A stretch of 33,220 nt of DNA from an uncultured Clostridia bacterium (GCA_944391225.1 CALXSS010000021.1:1-33220); one strand, 5' to 3'; counted from the first letter of the stretch, positions 8,322 through 31,114 are shown. The notes: generated by a model not told the origin, from the sequence alone. Program-made: numbers and translations.

Positions 8322-8480
8322 TTATTGTTGTTTTCCGAAAAGCGTTCCAACATTAGTTGTGATCGACGCGTTCAAACCGTTTTTTTCCTCATCAGCAGCA
8401 TTGGAATCTCCGGATGAGGTTATCACTGATTCTCTTTCAAAATAATCTATCTCGATTTTTGGCATATCATATCTTTCCAT
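8322..8480 (-). CDS. 52-residue small protein, first copy of a conserved-leader family
   Basis: ATG at 8480 has GGGAGGA seven bases upstream and reads 52 residues to TAA at 8322. The N-terminal half contains MPKIEIDYFE and SVITSSG. It matches the second small protein (30953-31114) through the pattern aromatic-x-x-P-x-I-[D/E]-I-x-x-F-x-x-[D/E]-x-[V/I]-[V/I]-T-x-S-G. The C-terminal halves differ; here it is polar (DEEKNGLNASITTN) and ends GKQQ. There is no signal peptide, no membrane segment and no cysteine. The gene starts 24 bp from the MITE-like element at 8504 and ends in a strong terminator. The ribosome binding site plus the cross-window match make it a real gene. Function unknown. Confidence 0.75.
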   Translation of the reverse strand: MERYDMPKIEIDYFERESVITSSGDSNAADEEKNGLNASITTNVGTLFGKQQ

Positions 8481-8503
8481 AATGCTTTCCTCCCGATCAT
8501 GAT

Positions 8504-8761
8504 AGGTAGTGTAAAGTGTTTTTACGTATTACTATGAAAACCTTAGCAGCTATGCGGGTTGTAGCGTCTATTTGTGCAAAATGACGATCACCTCCCCTTA
8601 TTTCCCTTTGTAATATCCTAACATCATGCTCAAAATGGTTGTCAAGCCCGGGCTGAAAGCCCGTTAATTTCAGGCTTTACAAGCATTTTTGAGCATGATA
8701 AAATGTTGCACAAAGGGATTAAGGTTTTCTGTAGTTTTTCATATTTTACTTTACACTACCT
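8504..8761. mobile_element. 258-bp MITE-like element with nested inverted repeats
   Basis: It is bounded by a perfect 14-bp inverted repeat, AGGTAGTGTAAAGT (8504-8517) and ACTTTACACTACCT (8748-8761). Further matching blocks occur inside both arms in the same order: AAAACCTTA, TCCCTTTGT and CATGCTCAAAA. The left arm carries about 60 extra bases. The centre is a ~25-bp near-perfect stem (8625-8649 with ~8672-8697) around CGGGCT-GAA-AGCCCG (8649-8663). No ORF of useful length is inside. The ends containing GTGTAAA resemble IS256-like (Mutator-type) termini as I remember them, which would make this a non-autonomous derivative (inference). No target-site duplication is obvious. Confidence 0.6.
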
Positions 8762-8925
8762 GTAAATGCCTTATGGCTGTTGATATATATATTGTAATAC
8801 TTTTTTTTACTATTTGTCTATATTTATTGTATGTTTTAACCAAAAATATTTATTTTCGGCTATATCTCCAAACTTTGAAACTAAATTTTATGAAATTTAT
8901 ACAAATATATGTCCCCTTGATGATA
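8762..8925. other. AT-rich intergenic stretch without recognisable genes
   Basis: Very AT-rich sequence between the MITE-like element and the 3' end of the AraC gene. I see no ORF with a ribosome binding site and no clear terminator. Confidence 0.5.
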
Positions 8926-9714
8926 TCACAACATCGGCGTGTTTGAGCATCTTTTTCTGAACCGGTGCGGAGTTACACCGAAATGCTTTTTGAACACCGC
9001 CGCAAAATAATTGCTGTCGTTAAAACCGCATTGATATGCTGTTTCGGTCACAGATGCATCGCCGCGGCGGAGCAGCTCGGCAGCCTTATCGAGCCTTACG
9101 GCTGTAAGATAATCGCTGAACCCGAAACCGGTCACCTCCTTGAATCGGCGTGAAAAATATGTGCGCGAAAATCCGGCGTACCGCGCCGCCTCGTCAAGAG
9201 TGATCCTGCGGTCAGGGTGCATTGCGATATACTGCGCGGCGCGCTGTATCTGTTCTTCCTCAGTGCAGCGCACGGCAGAGGAGCTGACAGACCCCGGCAG
9301 CCGCGCCACAGTTATCATCAGCGCTCCAAAAAGCGCTGACACCATCTCGTCAGCATACTGTTTACCGGACTCATACTCCGTAAGTATCCACTCGAGCAGC
9401 CGCTCTGCCTGAGGGCATTCGCGCGCGTTAAAAAGAGCCTCGGAAACGGGAAACAGCCCCGGCTGTACAGCTCCGTCCGGGAACGTCAGAACGTACCGCT
9501 CCGCCTCATTTTTATCATTATACGAGACCCTGTGCAAACAGCCGGGCGGTATATACATAACATCGCCCGCGCTTAAGGTATACAGCGTGCTGCCAACAAA
9601 CATCCTGCGTCTGCCCTCACAAAGATAATACAGCTCGCCCCTGCCCTGATGGAAATGCTCGCGAGGCATCTCCGAAAGCGGCTTTTGTTTTCTTTTAGTT
9701 ATAGTTATATCCAT
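8926..9714 (-). CDS. AraC-family regulator (cupin + HTH), likely controls the MATE gene
   Basis: 262 residues. The N-terminal cupin (~15-100) contains HFHQGRGELYYLCEGRRR and SAGDVMYIPPGCLHR. The C-terminal AraC domain (~160-258) has two helix-turn-helices: ITLDEAARYAGFSRTYFSRR, and VTETAYQCGFNDSNYFAAVF with KKHFGVTPHRFRKR. These regulators bind a small ligand in the cupin and activate or repress nearby promoters. The gene is divergent from the MATE transporter with 118 bp between them. That gap holds a strong promoter for this gene and three AT-rich half-sites, one inside its own promoter, suggesting autoregulation. The ligand is unknown. Confidence 0.9.
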   Translation of the reverse strand: MDITITKRKQKPLSEMPREHFHQGRGELYYLCEGRRRMFVGSTLYTLSAGDVMYIPPGCLHRVSYNDKNEAERYVLTFPDGAVQPGLFPVSEALFNARECPQAERLLEWILTEYESGKQYADEMVSALFGALMITVARLPGSVSSSAVRCTEEEQIQRAAQYIAMHPDRRITLDEAARYAGFSRTYFSRRFKEVTGFGFSDYLTAVRLDKAAELLRRGDASVTETAYQCGFNDSNYFAAVFKKHFGVTPHRFRKRCSNTPML

Positions 9715-9728
9715 TCCAAAACCAGCCC

Positions 9729-9802
9729 ATCATAATATTTTCCTGTTTTTTATTATATACCATAATATTATTATAGTCAATAGCAAAATATTATGATATA
9801 CT
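9729..9802. promoter_or_regulatory. AraC/MATE divergent control region with three candidate half-sites
   Basis: ATCATAATATTTT (9729-9741) and AAAATATTATGAT (9785-9797) are a perfect 13-bp inverted pair; a third half-site, CATAATATTA, lies at 9761-9770. The regulator's own promoter is TTGACT (9780-9775), 17 bp, TATAAT (9757-9752) on the minus strand, with the third site in its spacer. For the MATE gene, TATACT (9797-9802) may be a -10 but its -35 (TAGTCA, 9774-9779) is poor, as expected for an activator-dependent promoter. Binding by the neighbouring AraC protein is inference. Confidence 0.6.
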
Positions 9803-9832
9803 AATTCACATCATAACACAGGGGGGATCATC

Positions 9833-11203
9833 TTGAAAGACAAAAAACTGCTTGAGGGCAGCGTATACAAAGCTCTTATAATGCTTGCAGTGCCTATAAT
9901 GCTGAACAACCTGCTGCAAACCTTTTATAATCTTACCGACACCTACTGGCTCGGCAGGCTTAACGCCGATTCCATGGCTGCAATAACGCTTGTTTCGCCG
10001 CTGCAGAATGTTATAACGAGCTTTGGCGGAGGGCTTACAGCCGGAGGCTCGGTCATTCTTTCGCAGTGCTTCGGCGCGGGAGATATGAAAGAAAGCTCCG
10101 ACACCGCTAACCAGGTATTTCTTATGCTCATGTCATTTTCGGTCATAGCAGGACTTATACTGTTTTTCGGCTGCGGCGCGATGATAAGCGGAATGGGCGC
10201 GCAGGGCACGGTATATGACTACGCTGTGCTGTATCAAAGGATAATGAGCGCGGATATACCGCTGATATATGCGGTGAATGTGTACACCTCCGTCCACAAT
10301 TCAGCTGGCAGGACGGGAAAGCCGCTCGCGCTCAATTTTGTGGGCATAGCTGTAAATATGATACTTGATCCGCTGTTTATTGCTGTTTTTGGCTGGGGAG
10401 TTGGCGGCGCGGCTGTGGCGACTGTAATATCAAAGATACCGTGCGCCGCGCTTGCAATGTATTTCCTTACCAGAAAGGACGCTCAGCTGAGAATAACACC
10501 GCTGCGGATAAGACCGGACAGGAAAACGATTCTTGACATTATAAAAACCGGACTGCCTATGGGCATTGGCAATTCAGCAATGCAGTTCGGATTTGTGCTT
10601 ATGAACAAGAACGTTATGGATTACGGAACAATAGCAGTTGCGGCATACGGCATAGGCAACAAGCTAAACGGCATAGTTTCCACGCCATCGACTGCTATGT
10701 CGAACGCGGTCTCTATAATATCCGGTCAGACTAAGGGCGCGGGAATGAGAAAGCGCGGCATACAGTCAATGACAGCCGGTATGATAATGATGGTTGGTCT
10801 GCTCGCGGCTACCGGCTTTGTGCTGTCTCGAAATTCCATATCGCACGCGGCGGCAGGCATATTCTCGACCGACGCCGAGGTAATAAACAGCGCGGCGCGG
10901 TTTCTCGCGATAATGTCTGCAATGACCTGGACAAACGGTATTTACGATTCGGCAAAGGGCTACCTTACAGGACAGGGACGCACCCTTTCCACAGTGACGA
11001 TAAACGCCGCAAGGCTGTGGCTTTTCCGCTTTGCCGTCCTGTTCGTATGCGAAAGCGTTCTGGGCATGGGAGTGGACAGCATATGGTACGCGGTAACGCT
11101 TTCAAACGCTATGGCGGCGGCTGTTATGGGTATATACGCTGTTATCACAATACGCGGCAGCCACGCCAAAAAACATCTTTTTTACAGGCCGCTGCACACC
11201 TAA
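9833..11203 (+). CDS. MATE-family multidrug/cation antiporter
   Basis: 456 residues starting at TTG (9833), with GGGGGG (9821-9826) upstream. It has about twelve hydrophobic segments in two similar halves. The first half has the MATE signature region PIMLNNLLQTFYNLTDTYWL, and the loop LSQCFGAGDMKES follows the second helix. The second half begins around GLPMGIGNSAMQFGFVLMNK. These transporters expel cationic drugs or metabolites in exchange for Na+ or H+. The length matches the family (~450). It is controlled from the divergent AraC region, so it is probably induced by a compound sensed by that regulator. Substrate unknown. Confidence 0.92.
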   Translation: MKDKKLLEGSVYKALIMLAVPIMLNNLLQTFYNLTDTYWLGRLNADSMAAITLVSPLQNVITSFGGGLTAGGSVILSQCFGAGDMKESSDTANQVFLMLMSFSVIAGLILFFGCGAMISGMGAQGTVYDYAVLYQRIMSADIPLIYAVNVYTSVHNSAGRTGKPLALNFVGIAVNMILDPLFIAVFGWGVGGAAVATVISKIPCAALAMYFLTRKDAQLRITPLRIRPDRKTILDIIKTGLPMGIGNSAMQFGFVLMNKNVMDYGTIAVAAYGIGNKLNGIVSTPSTAMSNAVSIISGQTKGAGMRKRGIQSMTAGMIMMVGLLAATGFVLSRNSISHAAAGIFSTDAEVINSAARFLAIMSAMTWTNGIYDSAKGYLTGQGRTLSTVTINAARLWLFRFAVLFVCESVLGMGVDSIWYAVTLSNAMAAAVMGIYAVITIRGSHAKKHLFYRPLHT

Positions 11204-11246
11204 AAGCAAACCCGCAAGCTCCCTGCGCGCTTGTAAATACCGCCAT

Positions 11247-11283
11247 AAAAAAGAGGCTGTAGCAAGCTCTTTGCCACAGCCTC
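11247..11283 (-). terminator. Terminator of the GH116-like gene
   Basis: GAGGCTGT (11253-11260) pairs with ACAGCCTC (11276-11283). On the minus strand it is followed by six T (11252-11247). The convergent MATE gene ends at 11203. The rest of the 165-bp gap shows nothing else. Confidence 0.75.
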
Positions 11284-11368
11284 GTATTTAGCTCTGCTGA
11301 TATTTAAACAGCTGACACATCTGTCGGATAATATCCGAATTAACATCTAATTCTTAAAATATAAATCC

Positions 11369-14300
11369 TTATTTCTTCGCATAATCTATCGGTTTCATTG
11401 TGCCCATGCCGTCCCAAAGCATTATTCTATAGGAGCAGTCCTCGGGTATATCAAAGCTTTCTTCTGTCTTTTCCCCCGCTTCCAATTCAGCAGCTGTTCC
11501 AAGCTGAACGCTATCAAGCGTGCCGTCACTGTTATATGATGCCGCTATAAGCTGTAGCTTAACTGCGGTATCAGTAGAATTTCTAACCTCCGCTTTTATT
11601 CTGCCGTCCTCCTGCTCCGCTACATCAAATATAATCCCACTTTCATTAATTCTCATATTCATAGCAAAAAAGAGATTTACTTTTGTTCCTGTGAACGTGA
11701 GTGAATATATACCCGGCTCAAGCACGCCTGTATAAGCATATGCTATTCCCATATTGACTGAGCTTGACGCGGATTCAAGCTTTGCTATCTTTATCTGATT
11801 TGAAATACAGTCCAGAACCTCTGTTGTTTCACCGTTTGTAAGTGTTACAGTATAGCCTCTGCCGGTATATTCCCTCATCAGAAGATCCAGCCTGTAGCTT
11901 CCTTTCTCTGGAATATAGATCGTCTTTGTAATATCCGCTGTAGTATAGAAACGGTATTTGTTTTCAAAATCTGCCAGACTTCCGAACGGCTCGCCTGCCT
12001 CTGTATAATTTCCTGTCAGCGCCGGATCAGCTGTATACCAGCCCGTGCTGTGCTCAGATATATTATTTGTAAGCATGTCGGCTGTATATACCGTATCAGT
12101 ATCCAGCTCCGCCCTTGTTTCTGACGCATCCACTATTTTTACCGCATACAGATCCGGCAGCCATGTGCTGCTGTTATAGAAGGTTATATCGCCGCTGTAG
12201 TCCTCATTTAAGCTGAGCATGAACTCATGCAGAACCAGCCCGTCTGCAAGATCGCGTTTTGACGCATATACAGCCGTTCCGTTTCCGTTTTCAAATCCCA
12301 CTGTTATATCATTAGCGTTTCCGCCTATATAATAAAGCTTGTATTTTCCGGCTTTAAGCTCAGTTGTAACAGCCGGCTTTATATTATAAGCTCCGCTGCA
12401 GCCAATATAATTTATCATATATCCGGTATACGATCTTGATATAGCTGAGCTGTTATCAGCATCTGCAAACAGCTTTCTTGTTTCCTCGTCTATTTCATCA
12501 TCAAAAACATAAACATTATCATTCGTATTCAGCCGCGCGCTCTTTTCTCCTGTATTATACCTTTCCAGATCAAAATATCCGGCGCCGCTGGGGTGCTGCT
12601 GCTCTGTGCCCGCAAAGGTGTACTCATCAACTGTCGGGTCTGACTGCTCCGGCGGCGGTGTCTGGTTCCCATCGCCATATTCCTCGTCATTATTATAAAC
12701 ATATATCTCATTGATCGACCAGTAATTTGACGGGGCTGAACCTGTCTGGCATATTTTTATATATCTCGCGCTGCATCTTATAAATGTTATATCCGTTTCG
12801 CCGCCCGCTCCGGCTCCTGAGGCTATACAGCTGCCGAAATTCTGTCCGTCCTCAGACACATATACCTCGTATCTGCGCGGATAATCCTTTGATGAGGCAG
12901 TATTATCAAGCTTTATCTTGTTGAACTCATATACATCTCCAAGATCAAGCAAATACCACTCATTCCCCTCCTGATAAGAAGAATTCCATCTTGTAGCCGG
13001 GTCTCTGTCAAATGCGCTGCCTGCCGCGTCAGTATTTTTTGACGCGCTCGCGCTCCAGTTTTGATTTGGTATCTGATATTTATACTCGAAAACAAAGCTG
13101 TCAATATCAACAAGTCCGCCGCTTTCATCATCATTCGTTCGGAATCTCAACACAACATTATCTGTACCTGAGATCACACTGTCAAGCTCGCAGCGTATCT
13201 CCTGCCACTCGCCGCCGGTATTTGGTATTTCTATGTTCTGAACTGTCTCGCCGCTTACAAGACCTAATGCAAGCTCTATATGCGAGCTTTTACTGCTGCG
13301 CACCCTCAGCCTTATCGCCTTAGCTCCGTCCTCAAACCCGACTCCGTCATATTTTACATAGTCCTGATCGTCACATTCTGTTACATATGATATTCCGTTT
13401 TCCTCCGCAACGCTTATTCCTCCGGCGCTTGAATATTTCTCCGCTTCTATCGTCTTAAACGCGCTCATTTCGGCTGTGACCGGAGGAATTTCTATATCGT
13501 CCGGCTTTTCAGGATCGGCAGGCGGCTCTTTGCCCGGATCACCCTCTGTAACAATATTGAGCCCCTCTGCTGTAACATAGTTATTATACTCTACAGCGAG
13601 CGTTTTTGAATATCCCTCGCCTGTGCGCTCAAACGGATATTCCACACCGTTTATTTTAACGCTTATATCGCTATCGCCAAAATTATCCTCAAGATAAAGC
13701 GTGCTTACATATATTTCATTATCAGGCTTAAACGTTATATTCTTGTTCTGATACGCCTCGCTTCCCTCTGAGGCTGTTTCAACACAGCTTATCGTTCCCC
13801 ATCCTTCCGGAGATACATATGCCGCATCAGTCATTTTGTGATCCATCTCCGGCAGAAGTATCGGCTCAAGCCACAGCTCCTTAGTTGCCGCGTTGCGCTG
13901 ATAGCCTATCACATCATAATAGTTTCGCCATATCGATGGGATCGATATATACTGCTTGTCTCCGCTTATATTTGTTGCGGCATAATTTGCAGTGCTGACT
14001 GACGGCAATATATCAAGAGGATGATTAAACACATAATTCCTGTTCTTGAACTGCCTGTTATACGATTCTTTCTGCAATGCCTCATAATGGCTCTGACGCT
14101 GTGTATGGAGCAGCAGACCGCCGTAATGAGTAAGCATATATGGCGTCCATTCGTCATATGTGCCCTGCGGATAGCCAAGCGTCTTGTAAAGCGGATGATA
14201 ATAATCGTCAAGGCATTCAAGAACATAATCCGTTTCCTCCTGCGTCCATATCTGTCCAAGCCTCAGATGTATTGAAAGCCATTGTCCGGCAAAATATGAT

Positions 14301-15889
14301 TCAGATATTCTTCCTGTAGGGAAGTTATTATCCAGATATTTTTTTCTGTAGGATTCCTTTACCGTTTCATAAGCTTCAGCATATTTCTGCGCCAGCTCCT
14401 GATCTCCGCATTTTTCACACATTATATTCATTATCCGGTATGCAACAGCCGATATACTCGTATTATACGCATTCGGGTCACCGCCGGCGTCATATGAATT
14501 TTCCGAATCCTTGAATGTATACGGATACTCCGGATCTCCATACAGCTCAACCTGATCAAATATTCTCTGTCCGGCTTTTTTCATATATGGGAAGAAATAC
14601 GACAGTTTTTCCTCATTGCCTGTCTGCATATACGCTTCATACACAGAAATTATAAACGCGCAATTCAGATCCACCCATTTATCTATATTTCTGTAATCGG
14701 CATGCTCTGTGTCATCCCAGTCTACAAGCTTATATTTTACAGAGGTGTCAGCCATATAATTGAAATCATGATGTATCTGACCGTCATTCCTCTGAGTTCT
14801 TGCCCAGTATTCAAGCTCCTGCCATGCAAACTGAGGTATAAGCAGATCTATTATCTGACGCGCATGCCACATCTGATCCATTGTTCCGAAGCATGTCCAT
14901 TCCCCCTCAGCGAACGCTGTTCTTCCGTCCCTTTTATAAATAGAGTTATTGCTTATATTCACAAGTGAATTAAGGCACTGATTAACAAACCAATCCGGTA
15001 TATCCGAGCCGCGCATTCTGTTTACAAGCTCGTCGGCGTTCGCTTTTAGAACGCTGAAATTTTCAAGTCCAAGTCCGGCTATTTCCGCAGCGTTATTGTA
15101 TATACCAAGATAATACGCGCCGTCCGGATCAGAATTATCATACCATGATAGCACAAATCTGATAGTTTTTGTTTCGCCCGCCTCCAGCGTCACCTTAACT
15201 GCAGTTCTGTTTTTTGTTCCTGATATTCCCGTTTCGCATACGCCTGTTTCAAAAAATTCAATTCCGCTTCCTGCTGAAACTATCCCACCGTCACACTGGG
15301 CAAACACAGCGCGCCCATCGGTTGCAAAGCCTTTGTTATCTATTATTTGCGGCACTTGAGACGTATCCCACAAAAGAGCCGCGGCTGCCTCTGCAGTATC
15401 GCTTCCGCTGTTTCTGAGCTCCAGCTCATAAAACGCATACGGCATACTCATAAGCTCATAGTTCTCACTGTCAAGAGGTGAAAATGCCGTCATGTTTATC
15501 TCTATCCCGTTTATTTCGCCGAAATCCACCATATGCTCAGGCCACACAGCGTCATCGCAGTATCTTCCGTCAATCTTTTGCGCGGTCAAGACATCTCTTG
15601 TTTCTGTTTTTCCTCCATTTGAGGAATAAAACTGAAATCTTGATTCTCCCTCTTTTTTATAGTCGTTCTGGTCTGCCGGAGCTGATGTGACAGCCGCAAA
15701 GCTTCCGTTCATAGCGTTGAACTTTACCGCGCCTGCACCAAATCCGCCAAGCGGCGTGCCTGTAGTTCCGTCCACTTTTTCCTGCTCCGCCTGTTCAGCA
15801 TAAGCAGGCAGTACCGGACAGGCTGCGCCAACAACTGATAGCGCTGCCGCAATACATATCATCTTTTTAAAGATCTTATAAACGCTCAT
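11369..15889 (-). CDS. Secreted GH116-like multidomain enzyme with CBM6 and CBM32
   Basis: The start is ATG 15889 (MSVYKIFKK), with AAAGGAAC upstream, rather than the in-frame ATG at 15949; length 1506. Order: signal peptide (1-~31); GH116-type N-terminal beta-sandwich from TGTPLGGFGAGAVKF (~43-290); (alpha/alpha)6 domain (~300-680); CBM6 (~808-935); F5/8-type C CBM32 (~940-1075); two unrecognised beta-rich domains (~1095-1260, ~1265-1415); C-terminal module ending IMLWDGMGTMKPID. FAEGEWTCFGTMD carries Glu330, aligning with the GH116 nucleophile. At the acid/base site, usually S-D-Q-x-x-G-Q-W, it has SESYFAGQW, with Ser530 in place of Asp. GH116 enzymes are beta-glucosidases, beta-xylosidases or N-acetylglucosaminidases. 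It follows an AraC gene but has its own -10 (TATAAT, 15946-15941) with no good -35. Confidence 0.72.
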   Translation of the reverse strand: MSVYKIFKKMICIAAALSVVGAACPVLPAYAEQAEQEKVDGTTGTPLGGFGAGAVKFNAMNGSFAAVTSAPADQNDYKKEGESRFQFYSSNGGKTETRDVLTAQKIDGRYCDDAVWPEHMVDFGEINGIEINMTAFSPLDSENYELMSMPYAFYELELRNSGSDTAEAAAALLWDTSQVPQIIDNKGFATDGRAVFAQCDGGIVSAGSGIEFFETGVCETGISGTKNRTAVKVTLEAGETKTIRFVLSWYDNSDPDGAYYLGIYNNAAEIAGLGLENFSVLKANADELVNRMRGSDIPDWFVNQCLNSLVNISNNSIYKRDGRTAFAEGEWTCFGTMDQMWHARQIIDLLIPQFAWQELEYWARTQRNDGQIHHDFNYMADTSVKYKLVDWDDTEHADYRNIDKWVDLNCAFIISVYEAYMQTGNEEKLSYFFPYMKKAGQRIFDQVELYGDPEYPYTFKDSENSYDAGGDPNAYNTSISAVAYRIMNIMCEKCGDQELAQKYAEAYETVKESYRKKYLDNNFPTGRISESYFAGQWLSIHLRLGQIWTQEETDYVLECLDDYYHPLYKTLGYPQGTYDEWTPYMLTHYGGLLLHTQRQSHYEALQKESYNRQFKNRNYVFNHPLDILPSVSTANYAATNISGDKQYISIPSIWRNYYDVIGYQRNAATKELWLEPILLPEMDHKMTDAAYVSPEGWGTISCVETASEGSEAYQNKNITFKPDNEIYVSTLYLEDNFGDSDISVKINGVEYPFERTGEGYSKTLAVEYNNYVTAEGLNIVTEGDPGKEPPADPEKPDDIEIPPVTAEMSAFKTIEAEKYSSAGGISVAEENGISYVTECDDQDYVKYDGVGFEDGAKAIRLRVRSSKSSHIELALGLVSGETVQNIEIPNTGGEWQEIRCELDSVISGTDNVVLRFRTNDDESGGLVDIDSFVFEYKYQIPNQNWSASASKNTDAAGSAFDRDPATRWNSSYQEGNEWYLLDLGDVYEFNKIKLDNTASSKDYPRRYEVYVSEDGQNFGSCIASGAGAGGETDITFIRCSARYIKICQTGSAPSNYWSINEIYVYNNDEEYGDGNQTPPPEQSDPTVDEYTFAGTEQQHPSGAGYFDLERYNTGEKSARLNTNDNVYVFDDEIDEETRKLFADADNSSAISRSYTGYMINYIGCSGAYNIKPAVTTELKAGKYKLYYIGGNANDITVGFENGNGTAVYASKRDLADGLVLHEFMLSLNEDYSGDITFYNSSTWLPDLYAVKIVDASETRAELDTDTVYTADMLTNNISEHSTGWYTADPALTGNYTEAGEPFGSLADFENKYRFYTTADITKTIYIPEKGSYRLDLLMREYTGRGYTVTLTNGETTEVLDCISNQIKIAKLESASSSVNMGIAYAYTGVLEPGIYSLTFTGTKVNLFFAMNMRINESGIIFDVAEQEDGRIKAEVRNSTDTAVKLQLIAASYNSDGTLDSVQLGTAAELEAGEKTEESFDIPEDCSYRIMLWDGMGTMKPIDYAKK

Positions 15890-15997
15890 TTTTACAGTTC
15901 CTTTCAAATTATTTTTATTGCAGCTGTTTTTCATAATTAAATTATACACCGTTTATCTCTCAATTAACATTCGCTTTTTATTCAAAACCAATCAAAA

Positions 15998-22396: not shown

Positions 22397-22430
22397 TATG
22401 TAAAAACAAAAAAAGAAAGGAATGATACGA

Positions 22431-25400
22431 TTGAAAAAGAAACAGCTTTTATCAGCGCTCATCGCGCTGAGCATGGCTCCCGCCGCTGTACCTGTAAAGG
22501 CGGATGCGGCAGCTGCAGCGTTTGATCCTCAGACTGTAATGTGGACAAACAACAAAATCGAAACAGTGCTTGCTCAGACAGGAAAATATTCTGACGCATC
22601 CACAGTGAATCCAAACGCCTCCACCAAGGATTCTTCGGGTGTTCAGAACCCCTATGGCAAGCCGGGCGAGCTGCTTACAGAATGGGCATACTCCGAATTT
22701 CTATGGACGCATTCCTACCCTGTCGGCAACGGCAGAATGGCTGGAATGGTAGCCGGAGGTATCGATAAAGAGGTGATACAGCTAAATGAGGACACCTGCT
22801 GGGACGGCTCACCATATGGCACGCTAAAAAATGAAAAAGGCGAAACAGTGACAACCGTTAATGGCACTCGCGACGCCCAAACGATCACTACTGACAATTT
22901 CACGGGAGGCAGCATAGAGGACGGCTGGAAATATTTCCGCGGCGCTGATGAAAACGGAGAGCCGGCTGAGATAGGCTCTGCCGATACTCTTGTCGGCGAC
23001 GAGCAATGGCGAGCTGAATATCCGGAATTTGCGTCTCAGAGCATTTCCAATCAGGCTCTTAACATTGACAATGCTGCCGAGGCTGATGCCGTTCAGGACA
23101 GATGGAGCATGGAAAAAATGGTCGAGGAAACCTTTTTAGGCTCGCCCACAAGACAACGCGCATACAAATCATTTGTAGAGGTATATCTTGACTTCGGACA
23201 AAGCAGTGAAAATGCGGATAATTATATAAAAAGCCTTGACATGAAAACCGGTATCGTTACCGTTGAATATGATTACAACGGCTCACATTTCAAGCGCGAA
23301 AACTTTATAAGCTATCCCGATCAGGCTGCTGTAACACATGTAGAGTCCGACAAAGAGCTTGACTTCACAGCGCAGCTTCATACCTATCACAGCGAAAAAG
23401 CTGGATATTACAAATACGAAAAGCTCAGCGATAACGAGGTAAAGCTCACTGCCTCCATAACAAACGGAAGCAAGGACAACAGCGAGCCTGCCACAGTAAA
23501 CGTCATCAAATTTGAGGCGCGCATGCTGCTTGACGGCGACGGCGCTTTCAGCGTATCAGACGATAACACCACGGTAAGCGTAAAGGGCGGCAAAACAGCC
23601 GATATATATGTTGTAGGCGCGACCAACTACGTTGATTACCTCAATCTTGACAGCTCCAAGCCCGGACGCGACTGCGACAAATATATGAATAATATAAAAA
23701 GCAGAACGTATAATCAGATACGCGAAAGACATGTTGAGGATTTCTCATCAGAGTTTTCAAAAACATCACTCTCGCTTGAGAATACTGACGGCGCCGACTT
23801 CTCAGACACGCCCACAGAGAAACGCGTTAGAATGGATATTAACGGCAAGTCAGGCTTCCTTACCGGAGCTGGCTCCAAAACTGCCGACGCCAACAAGAAC
23901 GGAGTTTACTCAACATACTCCAAAGGCGATAATGAGCTTGCCGCGCTTGAATTCAACTACGGCAAATATCTTATAATAAGCGGCTCGCGTGACGGCAGAA
24001 CAGCAGCTGACAGCAGCGAGATAGATATAAAGGAAAGCCAGCCGCTGAACCTTACAGGAAAATGGAACGCGGCGTTCTCAGCCTCATGGAACGGAAAGTA
24101 TACGATCAACATCAACACAGAGATGAATTACTGGGCTGCGCAGCCGCTCAATATAGCCTCATGCGAAAGACCGTTCATAGATACCTTTGCCGAGCTTGCC
24201 AAAAGCGGCGCGGTAACAGCTGCAAACCAGTACGGCATATACAATGGCAGAGGTGATGACAGCTATCAGCCCGGCGACCCGTGGGTAATGCACCACAACT
24301 ATGATCTCTGGCGCGGCACTCAGCCTATAGACAACGCGACAGCGGGATTATGGCCTACAGGCGGCGCATGGCTGCTTGAGCATGCATGGCAGTATTACGA
24401 GTTCAACAAAGATACCCAATACCTTGCAGAAGTATATCCATATATGAAAGGCGCGGCAGCGTTCTTTACTCAGTTCCTTGTAAAGGATCCTGTAACAGGT
24501 TACCTTATAACCGCCGCTTCATGCTCGCCTGAGCAGGGCGGAGTTCAGCCCGGTCCGGCAATGGACACTCAGCTCATAAGAAACCTTTATGACAGAGTTC
24601 GCAGCGCAGCTGAAATATTAGGCAAAACAGATGAGGACAGCGAGTTGCTTTCAAAGATCAGCGAGCAGATGCCATCGGATTATCTTGCAGATGAGGAGGG
24701 CAAGCTTGCGCCTAACCTCATAGATGATAACGGACTTATACAGGAATGGGCGCGCGGCGATGTTTCTTTTGATATTTCTGAGCGCAGCGGCGGAGAATGG
24801 ACTGTAACAAATCCGTTTACAAACGAGAATACAGAAGTATATGCTCACGGCGCAAGCAACAGCACGAATCACCGCCACTGCTCGCATCTGTGGGAGATAT
24901 TCCCCGGCACTCACCTTGACCCGTACAGCGAGGACGAGGCAGAACTGGAGATTTTCAAAGCATATCAGAAATCAGTATCCGCCCGCAGCACAGGCAGTGG
25001 TCAGGGCTGGGGACTTGCATGGAGAATAAATCTCAACGCACGCGCGCTTGACGGGAACAGCGCGTCGGCTATGCTTGAACAGCTCTTTACCACAAGAACC
25101 TCGCCTAACCTGTTTGACCAGCACCCTAACTTCCAGATAGACGGAAACTACGGCGCAACATCAGGTATAATCGAAATGCTTGTTCAGAGCCATAACGGAG
25201 AAATAGCCCTTCTTCCGGCTCTCCCCGACAGGTGGCAGTCTGGTGAAATAAACGGCATTAACACTCGTGAAAATGCTACAGTAGACATTGCATGGGAAAA
25301 CGGCGTTCCCAAAACTGCCGCGCTGCATTCACGCGCAGACGGCGACCTCAGCATCAGATCAAAATACGCTGAAAAAGCAAAAGTATTCGACGAAAGCGGC

Positions 25401-28400
25401 AAAGAGATAAAGACAAGCCTTAACGCCGATAAAACACTTCTTACATTTGCTGCGGAAGCAGGCAAAACATACACTGTAAAGGACTTCGGCACAAACACTA
25501 TCGAAACATCTGTTACATACAAAGCCGGAGATGTTACAGAATTTTATGCAAGCGATAACGGCAGCCTGCCTAAGCTCGCAAACTCTAATACAGAAGTAGG
25601 CTACCTGTACAGACGCGATGGAGTTAAAATAGGCTATGCTGTAGAGGATGTGGACTTTGACGGTCTCACACAGCTCACGCTTAAAATGGCAAGCGTCAGA
25701 AACAACTCAACATATCTGAGCGTTGTTCTGGACACCGCGGACGGGGAACAGATAGCTTATCAGCCTGTAACAACGGGCGATAATGTGCTCGAGCTCAGCG
25801 GTGCTGACGGCATAAGCGGGAAGCATAAGCTGTGGCTGCTGTTTGAACAGGTGCCGTATGACAGCGGCAGCTCTGACAAATACCTCGGCAACGCGGGGGA
25901 TCTTATTGCGGACTACAGAAAGACCGCAGAGCCGACAGAAACAGAGCCTGTCCAGACCTCAGCGCCTGCACAGACGACAGCTCCTGCACAGACGACAGCT
26001 CCTGCCGAAACTGACGCTCCTAAGGACGGATATACAGTTAATGCCGCATATTTCAATGAAAACGGCAAGCTTACCGCCGATCTTTCAGGAACAGGCAAGG
26101 CACAGCTGGCAGCGGCAGCGTATAACGAAAACGGAGAGATGACAGCCATAGATGTCAAGGAAATAGACAAAGGAGGCATAATAGAAATGGATCTGAATAA
26201 GCCTGAGAACGGCAGCGCAAAGCTGTTTATCTGGGACGGCAAAACCATGAAGCCGCTGGCTTGTGTTACCGCTCCGTCAGATCACGCTCCAACTGCCGCG
26301 CCCACTGCCGCTCCTACAGCACAGCCAACTGCCGCTCCAACTGCCGCTCCTACAGCGCAGCCAACTGACGCTCCGGCTGGATCGGGAGTTTACATCGGGA
26401 CAGTGTCATATGACACTGTTCAGCAGGCTGTAAACGCCGCTGCGGCAGCAGCTCCATCGAGTGAAAGCGAGAGAGTATATATTGACCTTTATCCCGGCGT
26501 GTACCGCGAGCAGGTAACAGTTGATACTCCGTATATAACCATACGCAAAAAGGCGGATACAGACGGCGAGGCAAAACTCACATGGTATTATGGCTTAGGC
26601 TCGCTTTATGACAGCTGTAACAGCAGCGGCTACTATGACCCATCAGTGATAGGTGACGGCGAGGCGCACACTCCGCGCGACTGGGGCGCGGCACTGAAAG
26701 TCACCAACAAGGCAACAGGCTTCACTGCTGAAAACATAACTATAGAAAATTCATATAACATATACTACACAGAAGAAGAACTTACAGACATTACAGGTGT
26801 TGACCCCGATCCGAACAACAGCAATTTCCGCCGTCTGGAATGGATAAAGGAACAGATAGAAAACGGAAAGAGCGATGACGAGATAAACGCATATCTGCAA
26901 AGCAGACAAAACATAGATTACAAAGGCGTTACCGCAAGCCCGCGCGAGCGCTGCGCCGCACTTCACTGCTCAGCCGACAAAGCTGTATTCACTGACTGCC
27001 GCATAATATCCACTCAGGATACAGTCGGCATAAATGACGGCAGAATGTATTTCAAAAACTGCCTTATAGGCGGAACTACCGACTACATCTGCGGCAGCGC
27101 TACAGCTGTATTTGACAGCTGCGAGCTTTACACAAACGCCGGAGCCGGCGGCGAATCCGCCACTATTACAGCTCCGTCCAATCCGGCAGTATCTGACGGC
27201 TACCTTTTCTACAACTGCCGCATTACAGGCTCTGAATTTGCTCAGTCAGGAAACCTGGGCAGACCGTGGAGCGGAGTAAACGCAGGCGCGAGCTACATAA
27301 ACACCACCATAGAAAACGCCTCAAACGGCGGCGGGCTGCTTATAAGCAGCAGCGGCTGGACGTCTATGAGCGGAACAGAACCAAAGGACGCCCGCTTCCA
27401 TGAATACGGCAGCGTTACAGCCGACGGAAACAGCGTTGACACGAGCTCGCGTCCTAAGCAGACACTTCTTAACGACTGGACAATGCTGCGCTATAATCCG
27501 CTTGTGTTTACACAGGGAAACGATGGCTGGGATCCGGCAGGTCTCACCTCGCGCTACAACGGCATCAATACAGTTCTTGAAAATACAAGTATAGATACAG
27601 GCGATACTGAAACTGATGTAGTCACTCTCCCACAAGCTCCGGCAGGCTATGAATTCAGATGGGAAAGCGCAAGCGAATTTGCAACGGTAAATGAGGATGG
27701 AAACAGTATATCACTTATCCGCCCTGCTTACGGTGAATCGCCAATAAATGCAGATATAAAGCTTTATGTGCGTGAAGCTGATAACTCGCAGATAGGAGCA
27801 GAAAAGAATATAATATTCAGTATAGAACCGTCAGCAGACACCGAAAACGTATTTACTGTATCAGGAACGGTAACGCTTTCCGTTCCGTCTGAAAACGATA
27901 CTGAGGTGACCGTATTTGTAAAAAGCGGCGCGGCAGTAATAAAAACAGCTACCGTTACTATACCATCAGGAGAGCTCTCTGCAGAATACACAGCTGAAAA
28001 CATACCTGCCGGCAGCTATACTGTTTCAGCGGAATCATCTGACACAGCCTATAACATATCTACTGAGGAAATGAGCTTTACTGCCAACAGCGGCGAGAAC
28101 ATTGCCTACGACATTGATGTGCGCAAAATGATGCTTATAACCAATACAATAACTGATTTTGACACATTCGCGCCGTCTGTAAATCAGGCAGAGGGCTTCA
28201 GCGCGGAAGCATACACCGCAAACGGCGAGGAAACGGCAAATCTCGGCGCTGACAACAGCGTATACAGGCTTACAAAGGCTGCGGGCGTCACCGTTCCGTC
28301 AAAAACAGGGATCAGCTTCGATCTTAGCGGACTTGTGAGCGAGGGCACGAGCCTTGAAAACACAAAAACCCTTTCATTCTCATTCGATATGCTTATGGAA

Positions 28401-28874
28401 ACGATAGAATATCTGCCAAGTGATTACTCATACTTTGATCTGGCATCATCAGCTGATAACGGTGGAAATGATAAGGAGGATCAGACAAGATTTGTGCGCT
28501 GCGGAGTTCACAACGGCTGGAAACAGCTTAACTTCTTTACAGCCGCCAACAACCGCGTAAACGGCGACAACACACAGTTTAACAAAAACAACGAAATGGC
28601 TAACCGCTGGTACAGGATAAGAGCTGATATTGATCTTGTTACAAAGACAATAACCGCCACTGTTTACGACCGCGACAAGGATATGCAGATGCTTAACGGA
28701 AAGCCATTTGTTATAGCAGCTCCTGACGAGGAGGGAAACAATATTAATTATCCCGTTTCCGCCTCACTCAACGATCTGTATTTCAACATCTATATGGATA
28801 AACGCGCAAACACAGAAAACAAGCTTGAATACTATATAGATAATATAAGTCTTGAATACAGCGACTTTGAATAA
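22431..28874 (+). CDS. Secreted GH95 - CE8 pectin methylesterase fusion enzyme
   Basis: The start is TTG 22431: AAAGGA lies nine bases upstream, while the ATG at 22422 would be only one base from it. 2147 residues. Order: signal peptide (1-~28); GH95 (~60-1030); beta-sandwich (~1030-1160); Thr/Pro linker (~1163-1198); module ending LFIWDGKTMKPLA (~1200-1281); Ala/Pro/Thr linker (~1285-1318); CE8 pectin-esterase beta-helix (~1319-1713); three C-terminal beta domains (to 2147). The GH95 motifs are intact: NINTEMNYW (~559), SCSPEQ (~697) and DGNYGATSG (~903). CE8 motifs: ALHCSADKAVFTDCRIISTQ followed by DTVG, GTTDYICGSATAVF, and LGRPW. It would remove alpha-L-fucose or alpha-L-galactose and de-esterify galacturonan. 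There is no visible anchor. Divergent from the MocR gene. Confidence 0.9.
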   Translation: MKKKQLLSALIALSMAPAAVPVKADAAAAAFDPQTVMWTNNKIETVLAQTGKYSDASTVNPNASTKDSSGVQNPYGKPGELLTEWAYSEFLWTHSYPVGNGRMAGMVAGGIDKEVIQLNEDTCWDGSPYGTLKNEKGETVTTVNGTRDAQTITTDNFTGGSIEDGWKYFRGADENGEPAEIGSADTLVGDEQWRAEYPEFASQSISNQALNIDNAAEADAVQDRWSMEKMVEETFLGSPTRQRAYKSFVEVYLDFGQSSENADNYIKSLDMKTGIVTVEYDYNGSHFKRENFISYPDQAAVTHVESDKELDFTAQLHTYHSEKAGYYKYEKLSDNEVKLTASITNGSKDNSEPATVNVIKFEARMLLDGDGAFSVSDDNTTVSVKGGKTADIYVVGATNYVDYLNLDSSKPGRDCDKYMNNIKSRTYNQIRERHVEDFSSEFSKTSLSLENTDGADFSDTPTEKRVRMDINGKSGFLTGAGSKTADANKNGVYSTYSKGDNELAALEFNYGKYLIISGSRDGRTAADSSEIDIKESQPLNLTGKWNAAFSASWNGKYTININTEMNYWAAQPLNIASCERPFIDTFAELAKSGAVTAANQYGIYNGRGDDSYQPGDPWVMHHNYDLWRGTQPIDNATAGLWPTGGAWLLEHAWQYYEFNKDTQYLAEVYPYMKGAAAFFTQFLVKDPVTGYLITAASCSPEQGGVQPGPAMDTQLIRNLYDRVRSAAEILGKTDEDSELLSKISEQMPSDYLADEEGKLAPNLIDDNGLIQEWARGDVSFDISERSGGEWTVTNPFTNENTEVYAHGASNSTNHRHCSHLWEIFPGTHLDPYSEDEAELEIFKAYQKSVSARSTGSGQGWGLAWRINLNARALDGNSASAMLEQLFTTRTSPNLFDQHPNFQIDGNYGATSGIIEMLVQSHNGEIALLPALPDRWQSGEINGINTRENATVDIAWENGVPKTAALHSRADGDLSIRSKYAEKAKVFDESGKEIKTSLNADKTLLTFAAEAGKTYTVKDFGTNTIETSVTYKAGDVTEFYASDNGSLPKLANSNTEVGYLYRRDGVKIGYAVEDVDFDGLTQLTLKMASVRNNSTYLSVVLDTADGEQIAYQPVTTGDNVLELSGADGISGKHKLWLLFEQVPYDSGSSDKYLGNAGDLIADYRKTAEPTETEPVQTSAPAQTTAPAQTTAPAETDAPKDGYTVNAAYFNENGKLTADLSGTGKAQLAAAAYNENGEMTAIDVKEIDKGGIIEMDLNKPENGSAKLFIWDGKTMKPLACVTAPSDHAPTAAPTAAPTAQPTAAPTAAPTAQPTDAPAGSGVYIGTVSYDTVQQAVNAAAAAAPSSESERVYIDLYPGVYREQVTVDTPYITIRKKADTDGEAKLTWYYGLGSLYDSCNSSGYYDPSVIGDGEAHTPRDWGAALKVTNKATGFTAENITIENSYNIYYTEEELTDITGVDPDPNNSNFRRLEWIKEQIENGKSDDEINAYLQSRQNIDYKGVTASPRERCAALHCSADKAVFTDCRIISTQDTVGINDGRMYFKNCLIGGTTDYICGSATAVFDSCELYTNAGAGGESATITAPSNPAVSDGYLFYNCRITGSEFAQSGNLGRPWSGVNAGASYINTTIENASNGGGLLISSSGWTSMSGTEPKDARFHEYGSVTADGNSVDTSSRPKQTLLNDWTMLRYNPLVFTQGNDGWDPAGLTSRYNGINTVLENTSIDTGDTETDVVTLPQAPAGYEFRWESASEFATVNEDGNSISLIRPAYGESPINADIKLYVREADNSQIGAEKNIIFSIEPSADTENVFTVSGTVTLSVPSENDTEVTVFVKSGAAVIKTATVTIPSGELSAEYTAENIPAGSYTVSAESSDTAYNISTEEMSFTANSGENIAYDIDVRKMMLITNTITDFDTFAPSVNQAEGFSAEAYTANGEETANLGADNSVYRLTKAAGVTVPSKTGISFDLSGLVSEGTSLENTKTLSFSFDMLMETIEYLPSDYSYFDLASSADNGGNDKEDQTRFVRCGVHNGWKQLNFFTAANNRVNGDNTQFNKNNEMANRWYRIRADIDLVTKTITATVYDRDKDMQMLNGKPFVIAAPDEEGNNINYPVSASLNDLYFNIYMDKRANTENKLEYYIDNISLEYSDFE
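26285..26385 (+). repeat. Coding tandem repeat for the Ala/Pro/Thr linker of the GH95-CE8 protein
   Basis: Repeated 12-base units of the CCAACTGCCGCT / CCTACAGCACAG type encode PTAAPTAQ-like repeats joining the FIWD module to the CE8 domain. A shorter repeat (25965-26005) encodes PAQTTA units before the module. Such repeats can change length by slippage. Confidence 0.7.
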
Positions 28875-28885
28875 CAAAAAAACTG

Positions 28886-28959
28886 TTGCTAAACAAGCTG
28901 TGATGTGGTAAAATATATAGCAATACAGAGGCTGTTGCAAATTTTTGCGGCAGCCTCTG
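28886..28959 (+). promoter_or_regulatory. Promoter followed by a palindrome ahead of the ferredoxin gene
   Basis: TTGCTA (28886-28891), 17 bp, TAAAAT (28909-28914) is a good promoter. It is followed by CAGAGGCTGTTGCAAA (28926-28941) paired with TTTGCGGCAGCCTCTG (28944-28959). The palindrome may end the GH95-CE8 transcript that stops at 28874. It also lies between the promoter and the next gene, so it could be a leader attenuator. No long T-run follows on either strand. Confidence 0.5.
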
Positions 28960-29010
28960 CTGTTTGATCTGATAAACACGCACATTAAAAAGAACAGGAG
29001 CTGATATTTT

Positions 29011-29772
29011 ATGAAATTATATTCACTGTATTTCAGTCCTACAGGCGGTACGCTAAAGGCAGCAAGACTGCTTTGCTCCGCGTGGGACTGCGAAATAACC
29101 GAGTTAGACCTCGCAGACAGAAGCCTTGACACGGGCAGCCTTAAATTTGAAAAAGACGATGTATGCCTTGTGACCGTGCCGAGCTTTGGCGGACGAGTGC
29201 CGCAGTTCATCATCCCTAAGCTTGAGCGCATGGAGGGAAATGGCTGCCGCGCAGTGGCAGCAACAGCATTCGGAAACAGGGCTTTTGATGATACGCTGCT
29301 TGAACTGAAAAACACACTCGAGTTACATGGCTTTGTATGTATCGGAGCAGCAGCGGCGGTAACTCAGCATTCTATCGCCCCGCGCTACGGAGCGGGCAGA
29401 CCGGACGCAGACGATGAAAAGGAACTGCGTGATTTTTCTGCCAAGCTCAAAGCCGCCGCCGAAAGCGGCACAGCCGCGCCGGTAAATGTTCCGGGCAAAT
29501 ATCCATACAAAGAAACAGGCAGATCCACGATAATACCAGCTGCAGATGATAAATGTATCCGCTGTGGTATCTGCGCATCGCGCTGTCCGGTAAACGCGAT
29601 ACCTGAGAATGATCCGGCTGCTACTGACGCGGAAAAATGTATCTCCTGCCTGCAGTGTATAAGCATATGCCCGCAAAAGGCGCGCAGCGCTGATCCTGCC
29701 ATTCTTAAGGCTGTGGAACAAAGACTTGAAAAGGTATGCTCCGAGCGCAAAAGCAATACATTATACATATGA
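29011..29772 (+). CDS. EFR1-type flavodoxin/ferredoxin fusion protein
   Basis: 253 residues; AGGAG (28996-29000) lies upstream of ATG 29011. The N-terminal half (~1-150) is flavodoxin-like, with SLYFSPTGGTLKAARLL as the FMN-phosphate loop and VTVPSFGGRVPQFIIPKL. The C-terminal part holds two 4Fe-4S motifs, KCIRCGICASRCPVNAI (~180-196) and KCISCLQCISICPQKA (~209-224). This architecture is common in anaerobic Clostridia as the EFR1 family of presumed electron carriers. The redox partner is unknown. It has its own promoter and shares a bidirectional terminator with the GH43 gene. A link to glycan use is not evident. Confidence 0.9.
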   Translation: MKLYSLYFSPTGGTLKAARLLCSAWDCEITELDLADRSLDTGSLKFEKDDVCLVTVPSFGGRVPQFIIPKLERMEGNGCRAVAATAFGNRAFDDTLLELKNTLELHGFVCIGAAAAVTQHSIAPRYGAGRPDADDEKELRDFSAKLKAAAESGTAAPVNVPGKYPYKETGRSTIIPAADDKCIRCGICASRCPVNAIPENDPAATDAEKCISCLQCISICPQKARSADPAILKAVEQRLEKVCSERKSNTLYI

Positions 29773-29818
29773 CCTGAAAACAGCGGATACGCCCAGCGCA
29801 TCCGCTATTTTCAAGTCA
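29771..29818. terminator. Bidirectional terminator between the ferredoxin and GH43 genes
   Basis: TGAAAA-c-AGCGGAT (29775-29788) pairs with ATCCGCT-a-TTTTCA (29800-29813); GAC/GTC can extend it. A/T runs on both sides fit termination in both directions of this convergent pair. Confidence 0.7.
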
Positions 29819-29837
29819 TACATTAACCGCCTTATCT

Positions 29838-30704
29838 TCATACCCATTCCAGCCTTGCGATAGCTGCCGCGCCCTCTATCGGGATACCCTTTCCGTTCCA
29901 GCCGCAGGTAGTTATATAATAGTCCTCACCATCTTTTATTACCTCGCACGCATGAGCATGCAGCTGAGCAACTACCATATCTTTGTGATTATCTCCGTTA
30001 TAATTCCCAAAATCATACGGTTTTTGAGATGCGAACACAAGCGTATTCTGGTAATTCTCTATATTACAGTCAGTATAGGTCACAAACAGATAATACATAT
30101 CGCCGCGCTTTACCACATACGGAGATTCAAACGCGCCCCATGCCGGACGCAGCGGCGCATTTCCGTCTGATGTCAAAGCATACTGCACAAACCGCCAGCT
30201 GCAAAGATCATTCGATACAAGACACGCCACCGCTCCATAACCGTCCTTCACTCCCGATACATACATTATCCACGTATAATCGTTCAGCTTCATTACAAAA
30301 TGATCCCTGTTGCACGCCATCGGCGGAGCGCCTATCATATTTATCTCATATCCCATCCACTCTGTAAGATCAGCCGACACAGCCATCTTTGTTAGCGATG
30401 GTCCGTAATACATATAGTATTTATCATCATTGCCTATAACGCAGGGCGCCCAGGCGCGCGTGCCGTCATCTATAACTCTGCCCTTTTCCTCCATTACACT
30501 GCCGTACAGCCCATTTTCCGATACTGCATGCACAAAATAACGCTCGTATGACGGTATCCCCTCCATACTCGTTATACCGAACAAATGCCATTTTCCGTCC
30601 CTGTCCTTTATTATGCTGTGATCGTTTATGTAATTTCCGCACCTTTCGGGTCTGAACAGCAGCTGCCATTCTCCGGTTATTTTTGGTATCTCTATACCGC
30701 TCAT
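29838..30704 (-). CDS. Cytoplasmic GH43-type glycosidase
   Basis: 288 residues without a signal peptide. CAGGAGG lies eight bases upstream of ATG 30704. It shows the five-bladed propeller pattern of GH43: YINDHSIIKDRDGKWHLFGI (~23-42) with a likely catalytic-base Asp, TRAWAPCVIGNDDKYYMYYG, and GAFESPYVVKRGDMYYLFVT with a likely catalytic-acid Glu. The family is mostly alpha-L-arabinofuranosidases, arabinanases, beta-xylosidases and galactosidases. The subfamily cannot be set by eye. As an intracellular enzyme it would finish imported oligosaccharides. It is monocistronic, with a good promoter (30739-30767) and a shared terminator. Confidence 0.78.
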   Translation of the reverse strand: MSGIEIPKITGEWQLLFRPERCGNYINDHSIIKDRDGKWHLFGITSMEGIPSYERYFVHAVSENGLYGSVMEEKGRVIDDGTRAWAPCVIGNDDKYYMYYGPSLTKMAVSADLTEWMGYEINMIGAPPMACNRDHFVMKLNDYTWIMYVSGVKDGYGAVACLVSNDLCSWRFVQYALTSDGNAPLRPAWGAFESPYVVKRGDMYYLFVTYTDCNIENYQNTLVFASQKPYDFGNYNGDNHKDMVVAQLHAHACEVIKDGEDYYITTCGWNGKGIPIEGAAAIARLEWV

Positions 30705-30738
30705 AGTGACCGCCTCCTGATAGAATAAATTCAGCTTA

Positions 30739-30767
30739 ATTATACATCATACTATACAGCTTATCAA
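30739..30767 (-). promoter_or_regulatory. Sigma-A promoter of the cytoplasmic GH43 gene
   Basis: Minus strand TTGATA (30767-30762), 17 bp, TATAAT (30744-30739), about 35 nt from the start codon. Confidence 0.75.
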
Positions 30768-30800
30768 TGCCTTATATGAAAATGATAGCTTTCCGATTTC

Positions 30801-30872
30801 TTGTAGGGGCAGATATTATCTGCCCGCATTCCCGCCACGCTAAGGGCTGGCGGATACTATCCGCCCCTATAA
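30801..30872. repeat. Pair of REP-like palindromes
   Basis: GGGCAGATATTATCTGCCC (30807-30825) and GGCGGATACTATCCGCC (30849-30865), each within a GTAGGGGC.../...GCCCC context. They share their core with the tandem array at 17819-17945. The two are arranged head to head around TTCCCGCCACGC. This is the main content of the 30705-30952 gap besides a promoter and a terminator. Confidence 0.75.
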
Positions 30873-30910
30873 TCCCAACATTTTAACATGAACCTCTTTT
30901 TATACAGCAC

Positions 30911-30939
30911 AAAACCGGCAGCGGGGATTTCACTGCCGG
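30911..30939 (-). terminator. Terminator of the second small protein gene
   Basis: CCGGCAG (30915-30921) pairs with CTGCCGG (30933-30939), followed on the minus strand by TTTTG. It lies 14 bp after the stop codon at 30953. Confidence 0.7.
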
Positions 30940-30952
30940 AATGCGCTATATA

Positions 30953-31114
30953 TTAAAATTCTATAGCAAAAATCGCCTTTGTTTCTGCCGTACTGCCCTC
31001 ATATTTGCTCTGAGCGCTCGACTTAGCCTTACCGAAATCAGTCATGCCTGATCCTGTCACTATCTCGTCATTGTCAAAAGTTTTTATATCTATGATAGGT
31101 TTCTCAAACTTCAT
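30953..31114 (-). CDS. 53-residue small protein, second copy of the conserved-leader family
   Basis: The start is ATG 31114, with a perfect AAGGAGG (31127-31121) six bases upstream that overlaps the stop codon of the preceding fragment; the ATG at 31135 lacks such a site. The N-terminal half reads MKFEKPIIDIKTFDNDEIVT then GSG. It matches the protein at 8322-8480 in spacing: aromatic-x-x-P-x-I-[D/E]-I-x-x-F, then [V/I]-T-x-S-G. The C-terminal half (FGKAKSSAQSKYEGSTAETK) is unrelated to the other copy. No signal peptide, membrane segment or cysteine. It is followed by its own terminator. It is cotranscribed with whatever lies upstream, now a decayed GH95 gene. Function unknown. Confidence 0.75.
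   Translation of the reverse strand: MKFEKPIIDIKTFDNDEIVTGSGMTDFGKAKSSAQSKYEGSTAETKAIFAIEF

Follow-up and report, generated by a model that had tools for sequence, protein, structure and literature searches.

Two small proteins of a Clostridia genome belong to a multicopy family that pairs with secreted proteins and carries a lasso-type leader motif

Introduction

Prochlorosins are a known case in which one enzyme set serves many scattered precursors that share a conserved leader and differ in their cores, and donor-strand complementation, as in chaperone-usher pili, is a known case in which a short segment completes the Ig-like sandwich of another polypeptide. Lasso precursors are read through a Y-x-x-P-x-L leader by the PqqD-type B1 protein, with Y(-17), P(-14) and L(-12) being required and Thr usual at -2 (PMC10368454). 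The B1 protein of paeninodin binds its own leader with a Kd of 5 nM (PMC5067487), and BsfK phosphorylates Ser3 of its lasso precursor in a reaction that the RRE speeds (PMC10368454).

Here we analyse two small genes, A and B, in a 33,220-nt stretch of DNA from an uncultured Clostridia bacterium (the window), which is contig C21 of a genome (G000) of 2.63 Mb and 81% completeness. The front halves of A, B and their relatives have the geometry of lasso leaders, and the genes belong to a family whose members typically follow genes for large secreted proteins.

Results

Two small genes in the window

The preliminary description had reported two short genes with strong ribosome binding sites and a terminator each. 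Both are genuine open reading frames on the minus strand, and both ribosome binding sites are strong:

8322..8480, minus: small protein A, 52 aa, family member (open reading frame and homology); full sequence (8480->8322) MERYDMPKIEIDYFERESVITSSGDSNAADEEKNGLNASITTNVGTLFGKQQ
8409..8480, minus: leader-like half of A, MERYDMPKIEIDYFERESVITSSG, which fits the family consensus
8325..8408, minus: variable tail of A, from sequence comparison
8489..8494, minus: Shine-Dalgarno GGGAGG of A, read from the sequence
30953..31114, minus: small protein B, 53 aa, family member and second gene of a pair; full sequence (31114->30953) MKFEKPIIDIKTFDNDEIVTGSGMTDFGKAKSSAQSKYEGSTAETKAIFAIEF
31046..31114, minus: leader-like half of B, MKFEKPIIDIKTFDNDEIVTGSG, which fits the family consensus
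30956..31045, minus: variable tail of B, whose end, KAIFAIEF, is strand-like
31123..31128, minus: Shine-Dalgarno AGGAGG of B, read from the sequence
30915..30939, minus: intrinsic terminator after B

The claim of separate terminators thus stands for B (30939-30915) and fails for A, below which the hairpin scores on the plus strand only and is the terminator of the neighbouring gene. Compared by eye, the end of the A tail, TTNVGTLFGKQQ, resembles the tail class of two other copies, C7 (GSIGIMSLLGGKSE) and L253 (NIGTVNNLFNK).

The gene that adjoins A codes for a transglycosylase (7586-8251), whose closest named match lies in goat-gut MAGs labelled Lachnospiraceae (66-67% identity; near relatives may be missing from the comparison), a hint that it was acquired by transfer. 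The goat-gut MAGs labelled Lachnospiraceae/Clostridia that gave the best named matches of this PBP do not carry the small-protein family.

A large family under protein-level constraint

A and B are a sample of a large, unannotated, multicopy family. Neither matched any Pfam or NCBIfam entry at E<=10, in line with the earlier suspicion that gene finders pass over such short genes and that the family may be under-annotated. When the window's genome was queried with A alone, seven places were found, and nine with B alone; a profile built from ten copies found 17 at E<0.005, and the copy number in this genome is put at 16-18. Across the genus the family was detected in 15 of 16 genomes with profile A1 and in all 16 with the larger profile A4, which gave 1-32 copies per genome. 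The 17 profile copies in one genome, together with the positive result in every genome of the genus, show that the resemblance between A and B is not due to chance. Beyond the order, 15 of the remaining genomes in the sample of the class carry the family, and G110 alone has 13 copies. As searches for small open reading frames by the motif alone gave many chance matches, small frames from that hunt were kept only when they had a ribosome binding site and a position between secreted-protein and kinase genes.

The consensus of 95 sequences reads [YF]-x-x-P-x-[MIL]-x-[IV]-x-x-F-[DE]-x-E-[ND]-[VI]-[VI]-T-x-S-G, with P in 100%, F in 98%, Y/F in 98%, M/I/L in 93% and E in 91% of the sequences, and with lower frequencies at its end (T 77%, S 75%, G 45%). 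Family members have a mean length of about 56 aa (39-68) and almost lack cysteine (5 in 74 proteins). Purifying selection acts on two close orthologue pairs, with pN/pS values of 0.20 and 0.13. In the former pair it extends over the full length, and the C-terminal half (pN 0.07 vs pS 0.39) is constrained as strongly as the front half, and the variable part is therefore functional too. Further homologues and protein-level constraint, on which the idea of a family had been made to depend, are thus both present, and the proposed layout of a conserved leader and a variable part in short precursor-type genes largely holds.

Small genes follow genes for secreted proteins

The upstream neighbours of the copies are large and mostly secreted proteins. 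Among 88 distinct copies in the fetched loci, 77 start between -14 and +35 nt from the stop of an upstream open reading frame on the same strand, and a signal-peptide-like start (crude rule) was seen in 42 of 48 upstream proteins with a visible N-terminus, compared with 38 of 88 other open reading frames in the same loci. Pfam matches among the partners include rhamnogalacturonan lyase, cohesin, F5/8 type C, Big_2, Big_3 and InlB-type repeats. A beta-rich domain of about 75 aa (CTD; profile A3) forms the C-terminus of many partners, and a genus-wide search for the CTD gave 77 matches. A listed small protein follows 63 of them within 400 nt; inspection of the remaining 14 revealed a small protein downstream in seven more. 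Fold assignment of the CTD by Foldseek and VIA-align indicated a general beta sandwich and no particular family, with best fold matches (Z 7.3) to ApaG, DUF1425 and a transglutaminase barrel.

The surroundings of B and A in the window are as follows:

31128..31739, minus: remaining 3' part (203 aa) of the partner gene of B, without a Pfam match
31131..31358, minus: CTD of the partner of B (A3 profile, E 5e-19)
8504..8761, no strand assigned: MITE-like element of 258 bp with perfect 14-bp inverted ends, AGGTAGTGTAAAGT, directly above A

B has a partner gene, missing from the preliminary description, which ends 13 nt before it; such pairing with a secreted-protein gene is near-universal in the family. 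The first base of the Shine-Dalgarno of B is the last base of the stop codon of this partner. The N-terminus and signal peptide of the partner are absent from the window. The region above B (31128-33220) is in pieces, with GH65N/GH95 fragments in different frames followed by the 203-aa open reading frame, which has an abrupt start; because the N-terminus is missing and the GH95 fragments lie in other frames, either the partner of B or the assembly is broken, and what lies at this end of the contig is a pseudogene or else a chimera of the assembly. A has no adjacent secreted partner, its nearest upstream gene, 445 nt away, coding for an AraC-like protein, and it looks like an orphan whose partner was lost. 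About 23 nt separate the MITE-like element from the start of A, and one end of the same element (L003 3232-3245) lies about 30 nt above another copy (C99); both of these copies are without the usual tight partner.

Other secreted proteins and short frames in these loci are recorded here for completeness. The window codes for a secreted protein of 2150 aa with fused GH95 catalytic and pectinesterase domains (22422-28874), and for a secreted enzyme that appears split into two overlapping frames of 642 and 179 aa (3739-6083), by a frameshift or an assembly error. Several other secreted enzymes, at 496-3687 and 11369-15949 of the window and at 7691-9517 and 9818-11617 of locus L008, share a different terminal motif, [FL][FLW][IVW]WD..[MG].P[YFL], and are not followed by a small protein. 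In locus L060, a second small open reading frame (MDGKKNTNKKVVLELDELEKVTGGTGG...), which looks like a true double-glycine leader peptide, lies 193 nt after the CTD stop beside a family member. A radical SAM gene judged by eye to resemble SCIFF maturases (L017 4751-6124) stands beside a weak, start-less family match (C31) behind an altronate dehydratase gene, probably by coincidence.

Tails resemble each other as the partner domains do

The tails had been described as diverging completely, a statement that has to be withdrawn. Most tails end in a strand with a terminal aromatic residue, an aromatic lies within the last four positions in 72 of 95 tails, and the ends VTFEF, VTITF, LKIVY and VNVVF recur. 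In 76 pairs, moreover, pairwise similarity of the tails followed that of the partner CTDs (Mantel r=0.30, p=2e-4); r was 0.29 with leader similarity removed, a correlation of which common descent of whole pairs can explain part.

AlphaFold2 models were made of fusions that consist of the CTD, the stop read as Gly, the short spacer and the small protein, for pairs that share one frame. In the L041 fusion the pLDDT was about 90 for the CTD, 41-57 for the leader half, which was not folded, and 84 for the tail; in the divergent L001 pair from the window's genome the values were 75-85, 46-52 and 82. Such fusions place tail and CTD in forced proximity; the high tail pLDDT beyond a disordered stretch nonetheless suggests, at the level of a model, docking of the tail on the partner CTD.

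The leader motif and the candidate machinery

The front half of the family reproduces the YxxPxL geometry of lasso leaders with the same spacing of its three anchor positions. Because the leader carries this motif, we searched for stand-alone PqqD proteins, and most family-positive genomes have one. PqqD is missing from the family-negative genera g7 (bar one weak match), g8 and g9. Within family f1, the table of PqqD against small-protein family is 31/6/8/25 (Fisher p=7e-7, the relatives not being independent), six f1 genomes having copies but no strong PqqD match. The reverse, a PqqD in a genome where no copy was detected, occurs in eight f1 genomes and in many f3 genomes. Among solved structures, those closest to the PqqD of the window's genome (G000:C12) are PqqD-family and lasso RREs, including TbiB1 (5v1u), while its NCBIfam matches to lasso_PqqD and ScmD are weak and below cut-off.

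In the window's genus, the pqqD gene directly follows a gene for a 235-aa HprK-like protein, the relatives of which keep a His, the P-loop Lys and an Asp; the protein mostly has no Pfam match, and its NCBIfam matches to ScmC and HprK-related entries are weak and below cut-off. Beside PqqD in other genera stands an S26-like peptidase, an assignment resting on a weak match to signal peptidase I (E 0.009). It is present in 15 of 16 genomes of the genus (G000:C83:9069-9461 in the window's genome) and tracks the family within f1 (Fisher p=1.5e-7); like PqqD, it is absent from related genera that have no family member. Matches to a related ABC exporter in the window's genome were 23-36% identical, and none could be named as the exporter.

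Most copies in the window's genus are scattered at a distance from any RRE or kinase gene, and in the window's genome the RRE and kinase genes, and the peptidase gene, are single-copy genes at two distant loci; A, B and the other copies would therefore be served in trans. This agrees with the earlier proposal of service in trans, as PqqD, HprK-like and S26-like genes co-occur with the family. Where a lineage has one or few copies, they stand together with the machinery. Six further genera or families have a copy placed between a secreted-protein gene and the kinase gene, and the gene orders read as follows:

L228 (genome G093): secreted protein of 1570 aa, small protein (35 aa), secreted protein of 359 aa, HprK-like, PqqD, S26-like, ABC exporter, PF14907 nucleotidyltransferase
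L230 (genome G059), in a single run: PqqD, S26-like, HprK-like, secreted protein, small protein, secreted protein, ABC exporter
L231 (genome G056): secreted protein, two small proteins, 151-aa open reading frame, HprK-like, S26-like
L260 (another family of the class): end of a secreted protein, small protein, HprK-like, PqqD, S26-like
L261: secreted protein, small protein, secreted protein, HprK-like
L205 (family f3): secreted protein, small protein of divergent sequence (MKTYTKPLVDVFELRVTENIAAPAG...), HprK-like; PqqD and S26-like stand close by

The recurrence of this gene order in many lineages makes the small proteins hard to explain except as substrates of the machinery. Computation thus establishes the family, its pairing and its leader geometry, and shows that it co-occurs and clusters with genes for RRE, kinase-like and peptidase-like proteins.

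In the 16 genomes of the genus, a search for the B2 transglutaminase-type leader peptidase (PF13471, Transglut_core3) found none, and the same search succeeded in control genomes; lacking this peptidase, the system is not a lasso system. No lasso cyclase of the Asn-synthetase-like type was recognized among the genes read beside copies, and the conserved Thr stands 14 residues after the leader Pro, compared with 12 in lasso leaders. A double-glycine/C39 leader, which closes with a GG-type pair (GG, GA or GS), was also considered and rejected, as the consensus ends in [VI][VI]TxSG, with G in only 45% of the sequences and no G at the preceding position.

Discussion

The arrangement is that of a peptide companion rather than that of a typical free-standing secreted peptide. 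On balance, we think it somewhat more likely than not that A and B are RRE-guided, RiPP-like precursors that are tailored in trans and matched each to a secreted partner. Two genomic features of RRE-dependent RiPPs are present, namely a short precursor with a leader and a variable C-terminal part, and a PqqD-type RRE in the same genomes that is adjacent to the precursor in some; as modification is a prediction, 'RiPP-like' is the furthest class that we claim. The leader would be bound by the stand-alone PqqD-type RRE as an added beta strand, and the bound RRE would bring the peptide to the HprK-like kinase and the S26-type serine peptidase and, in other lineages, also to the ABC exporter and the nucleotidyltransferase. 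By analogy, the kinase may act on a Ser or Thr, the likeliest being the conserved Thr/Ser of T-x-S, and the S26-like enzyme would remove the leader near the junction of T-x and S-G (the T(-2) rule of lasso leaders puts the cut one residue before the S). The ABC exporter would then move the product out, where the variable tail would add a strand to, complete or cap the C-terminal beta domain of the partner, so that each peptide would serve one secreted protein only, as its strand donor, cap or anchor. RRE binding, modification, cleavage, export and the extracellular companion role are all predictions from gene content, motif and model.

The same leader and variable core, and the RRE, kinase-like, peptidase-like and ABC genes that several lineages have, could also belong to free secreted RiPPs, either signals or bacteriocin-like. 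Their leader would be removed and their core released as an independent product, and the partner, perhaps a receptor, a carrier or an immunity protein, would be no more than a neighbour in the operon. We regard this as unlikely, for the partners are lyases, cohesins and repeat proteins rather than receptor-like proteins, a genome may hold up to 32 copies, and the tail follows the CTD of the partner. That last observation, with the pairing and the fusion models, would also suit a cytosolic secretion chaperone that binds the partner CTD before Sec export and uses its conserved half to bring in an export factor common to all pairs, with the RRE system unrelated; the lack of a signal peptide on the small protein fits this too. 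What makes such a chaperone rather improbable is that copies sit between the secreted-protein gene and the HprK-like, PqqD and S26-like genes in several lineages, that the leader fits the RRE motif, and that the family is lost together with the PqqD and S26-like genes.

The YxxPxL-type leader and the PqqD, HprK-like and NTP_transf_5 genes, all found in paeninodin-type clusters (PMC7533575), raise the question of true lasso peptides scattered in the genome. Given the missing Transglut_core3 peptidase, the longer spacing from P to T and the lack of a cyclase among the genes read, this is very improbable, and its strict form is already refuted unless another peptidase replaces B2. It is just as hard to credit that the copies are small housekeeping proteins unconnected with the RRE system, with leader resemblance and co-occurrence arising from coincidence or shared ancestry: the dispersal of copies in the window's genus would agree with it, whereas the co-occurrence and operon linkage with RRE, kinase and peptidase genes speak against it.

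Taken together, the preferred reading of matched, RRE-guided precursors suggests that dozens of the proteins secreted by gut bacteria are each supplied with a processed peptide companion. In its fullest form, the reading would be of a protein-maturation system not described before, in which a cell provides each of dozens of extracellular proteins with its own companion peptide, guided by the RRE and phosphorylated and/or cleaved, whose tail finishes the CTD outside the cell; this form is possible but doubtful. If true, it would explain a stratum of unannotated genes for 40-70-aa proteins in gut Clostridia and would mean that peptide-tailoring machinery is used in building the cell surface instead of antibiotics, RiPP-type tailoring finishing or anchoring the secretome rather than making a free natural product. 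Many lyases, cohesins and adhesin-like proteins would then come with a testable protein-peptide pair, and a substrate would be on offer for 'orphan' PqqD, HprK-like and S26-like gene sets that have no lasso cyclase beside them. We found no paper describing this gene set in the accessible literature, which is incomplete and so no proof of novelty; the words kinase and S24 are absent from the main text of two RRE-mining papers (PMC7470986, PMC12710340).

Among described systems, SynChlorMet ScmC/ScmD shares with the family an HprK-like gene adjacent to PqqD (sub-cutoff matches to TIGR04249 and TIGR04248), but the scores fall well short of the curated cut-offs, and radical SAM partners were not seen beside these genes. 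The proposed strand donation can be likened to donor-strand complementation; here, however, the strand donor would be encoded by a small gene of its own, behind an RRE-type leader, the docking is modelled, and chaperone-usher genes play no part. Prochlorosins resemble the family in their conserved leader, variable cores and genome-wide spread, and differ in leader and chemistry (LanM, C39 exporter) and in having no pairing of precursor with secreted protein. A further likeness is to the paeninodin and Bsf lasso clusters (PadeA/B1/K; BsfA/B1/K/N), which share a YxxPxL leader with a stand-alone PqqD-type RRE, an HprK-like kinase, a conserved Thr near the leader end and, in some clusters, an ABC exporter and a nucleotidyltransferase (PMC10368454, PMC5067487, PMC7533575). 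Unlike these clusters, the family has an S26-like peptidase instead of Transglut_core3 and a P-to-T spacing of 14 rather than 12, and its precursors are many and dispersed, each paired with a secreted protein.
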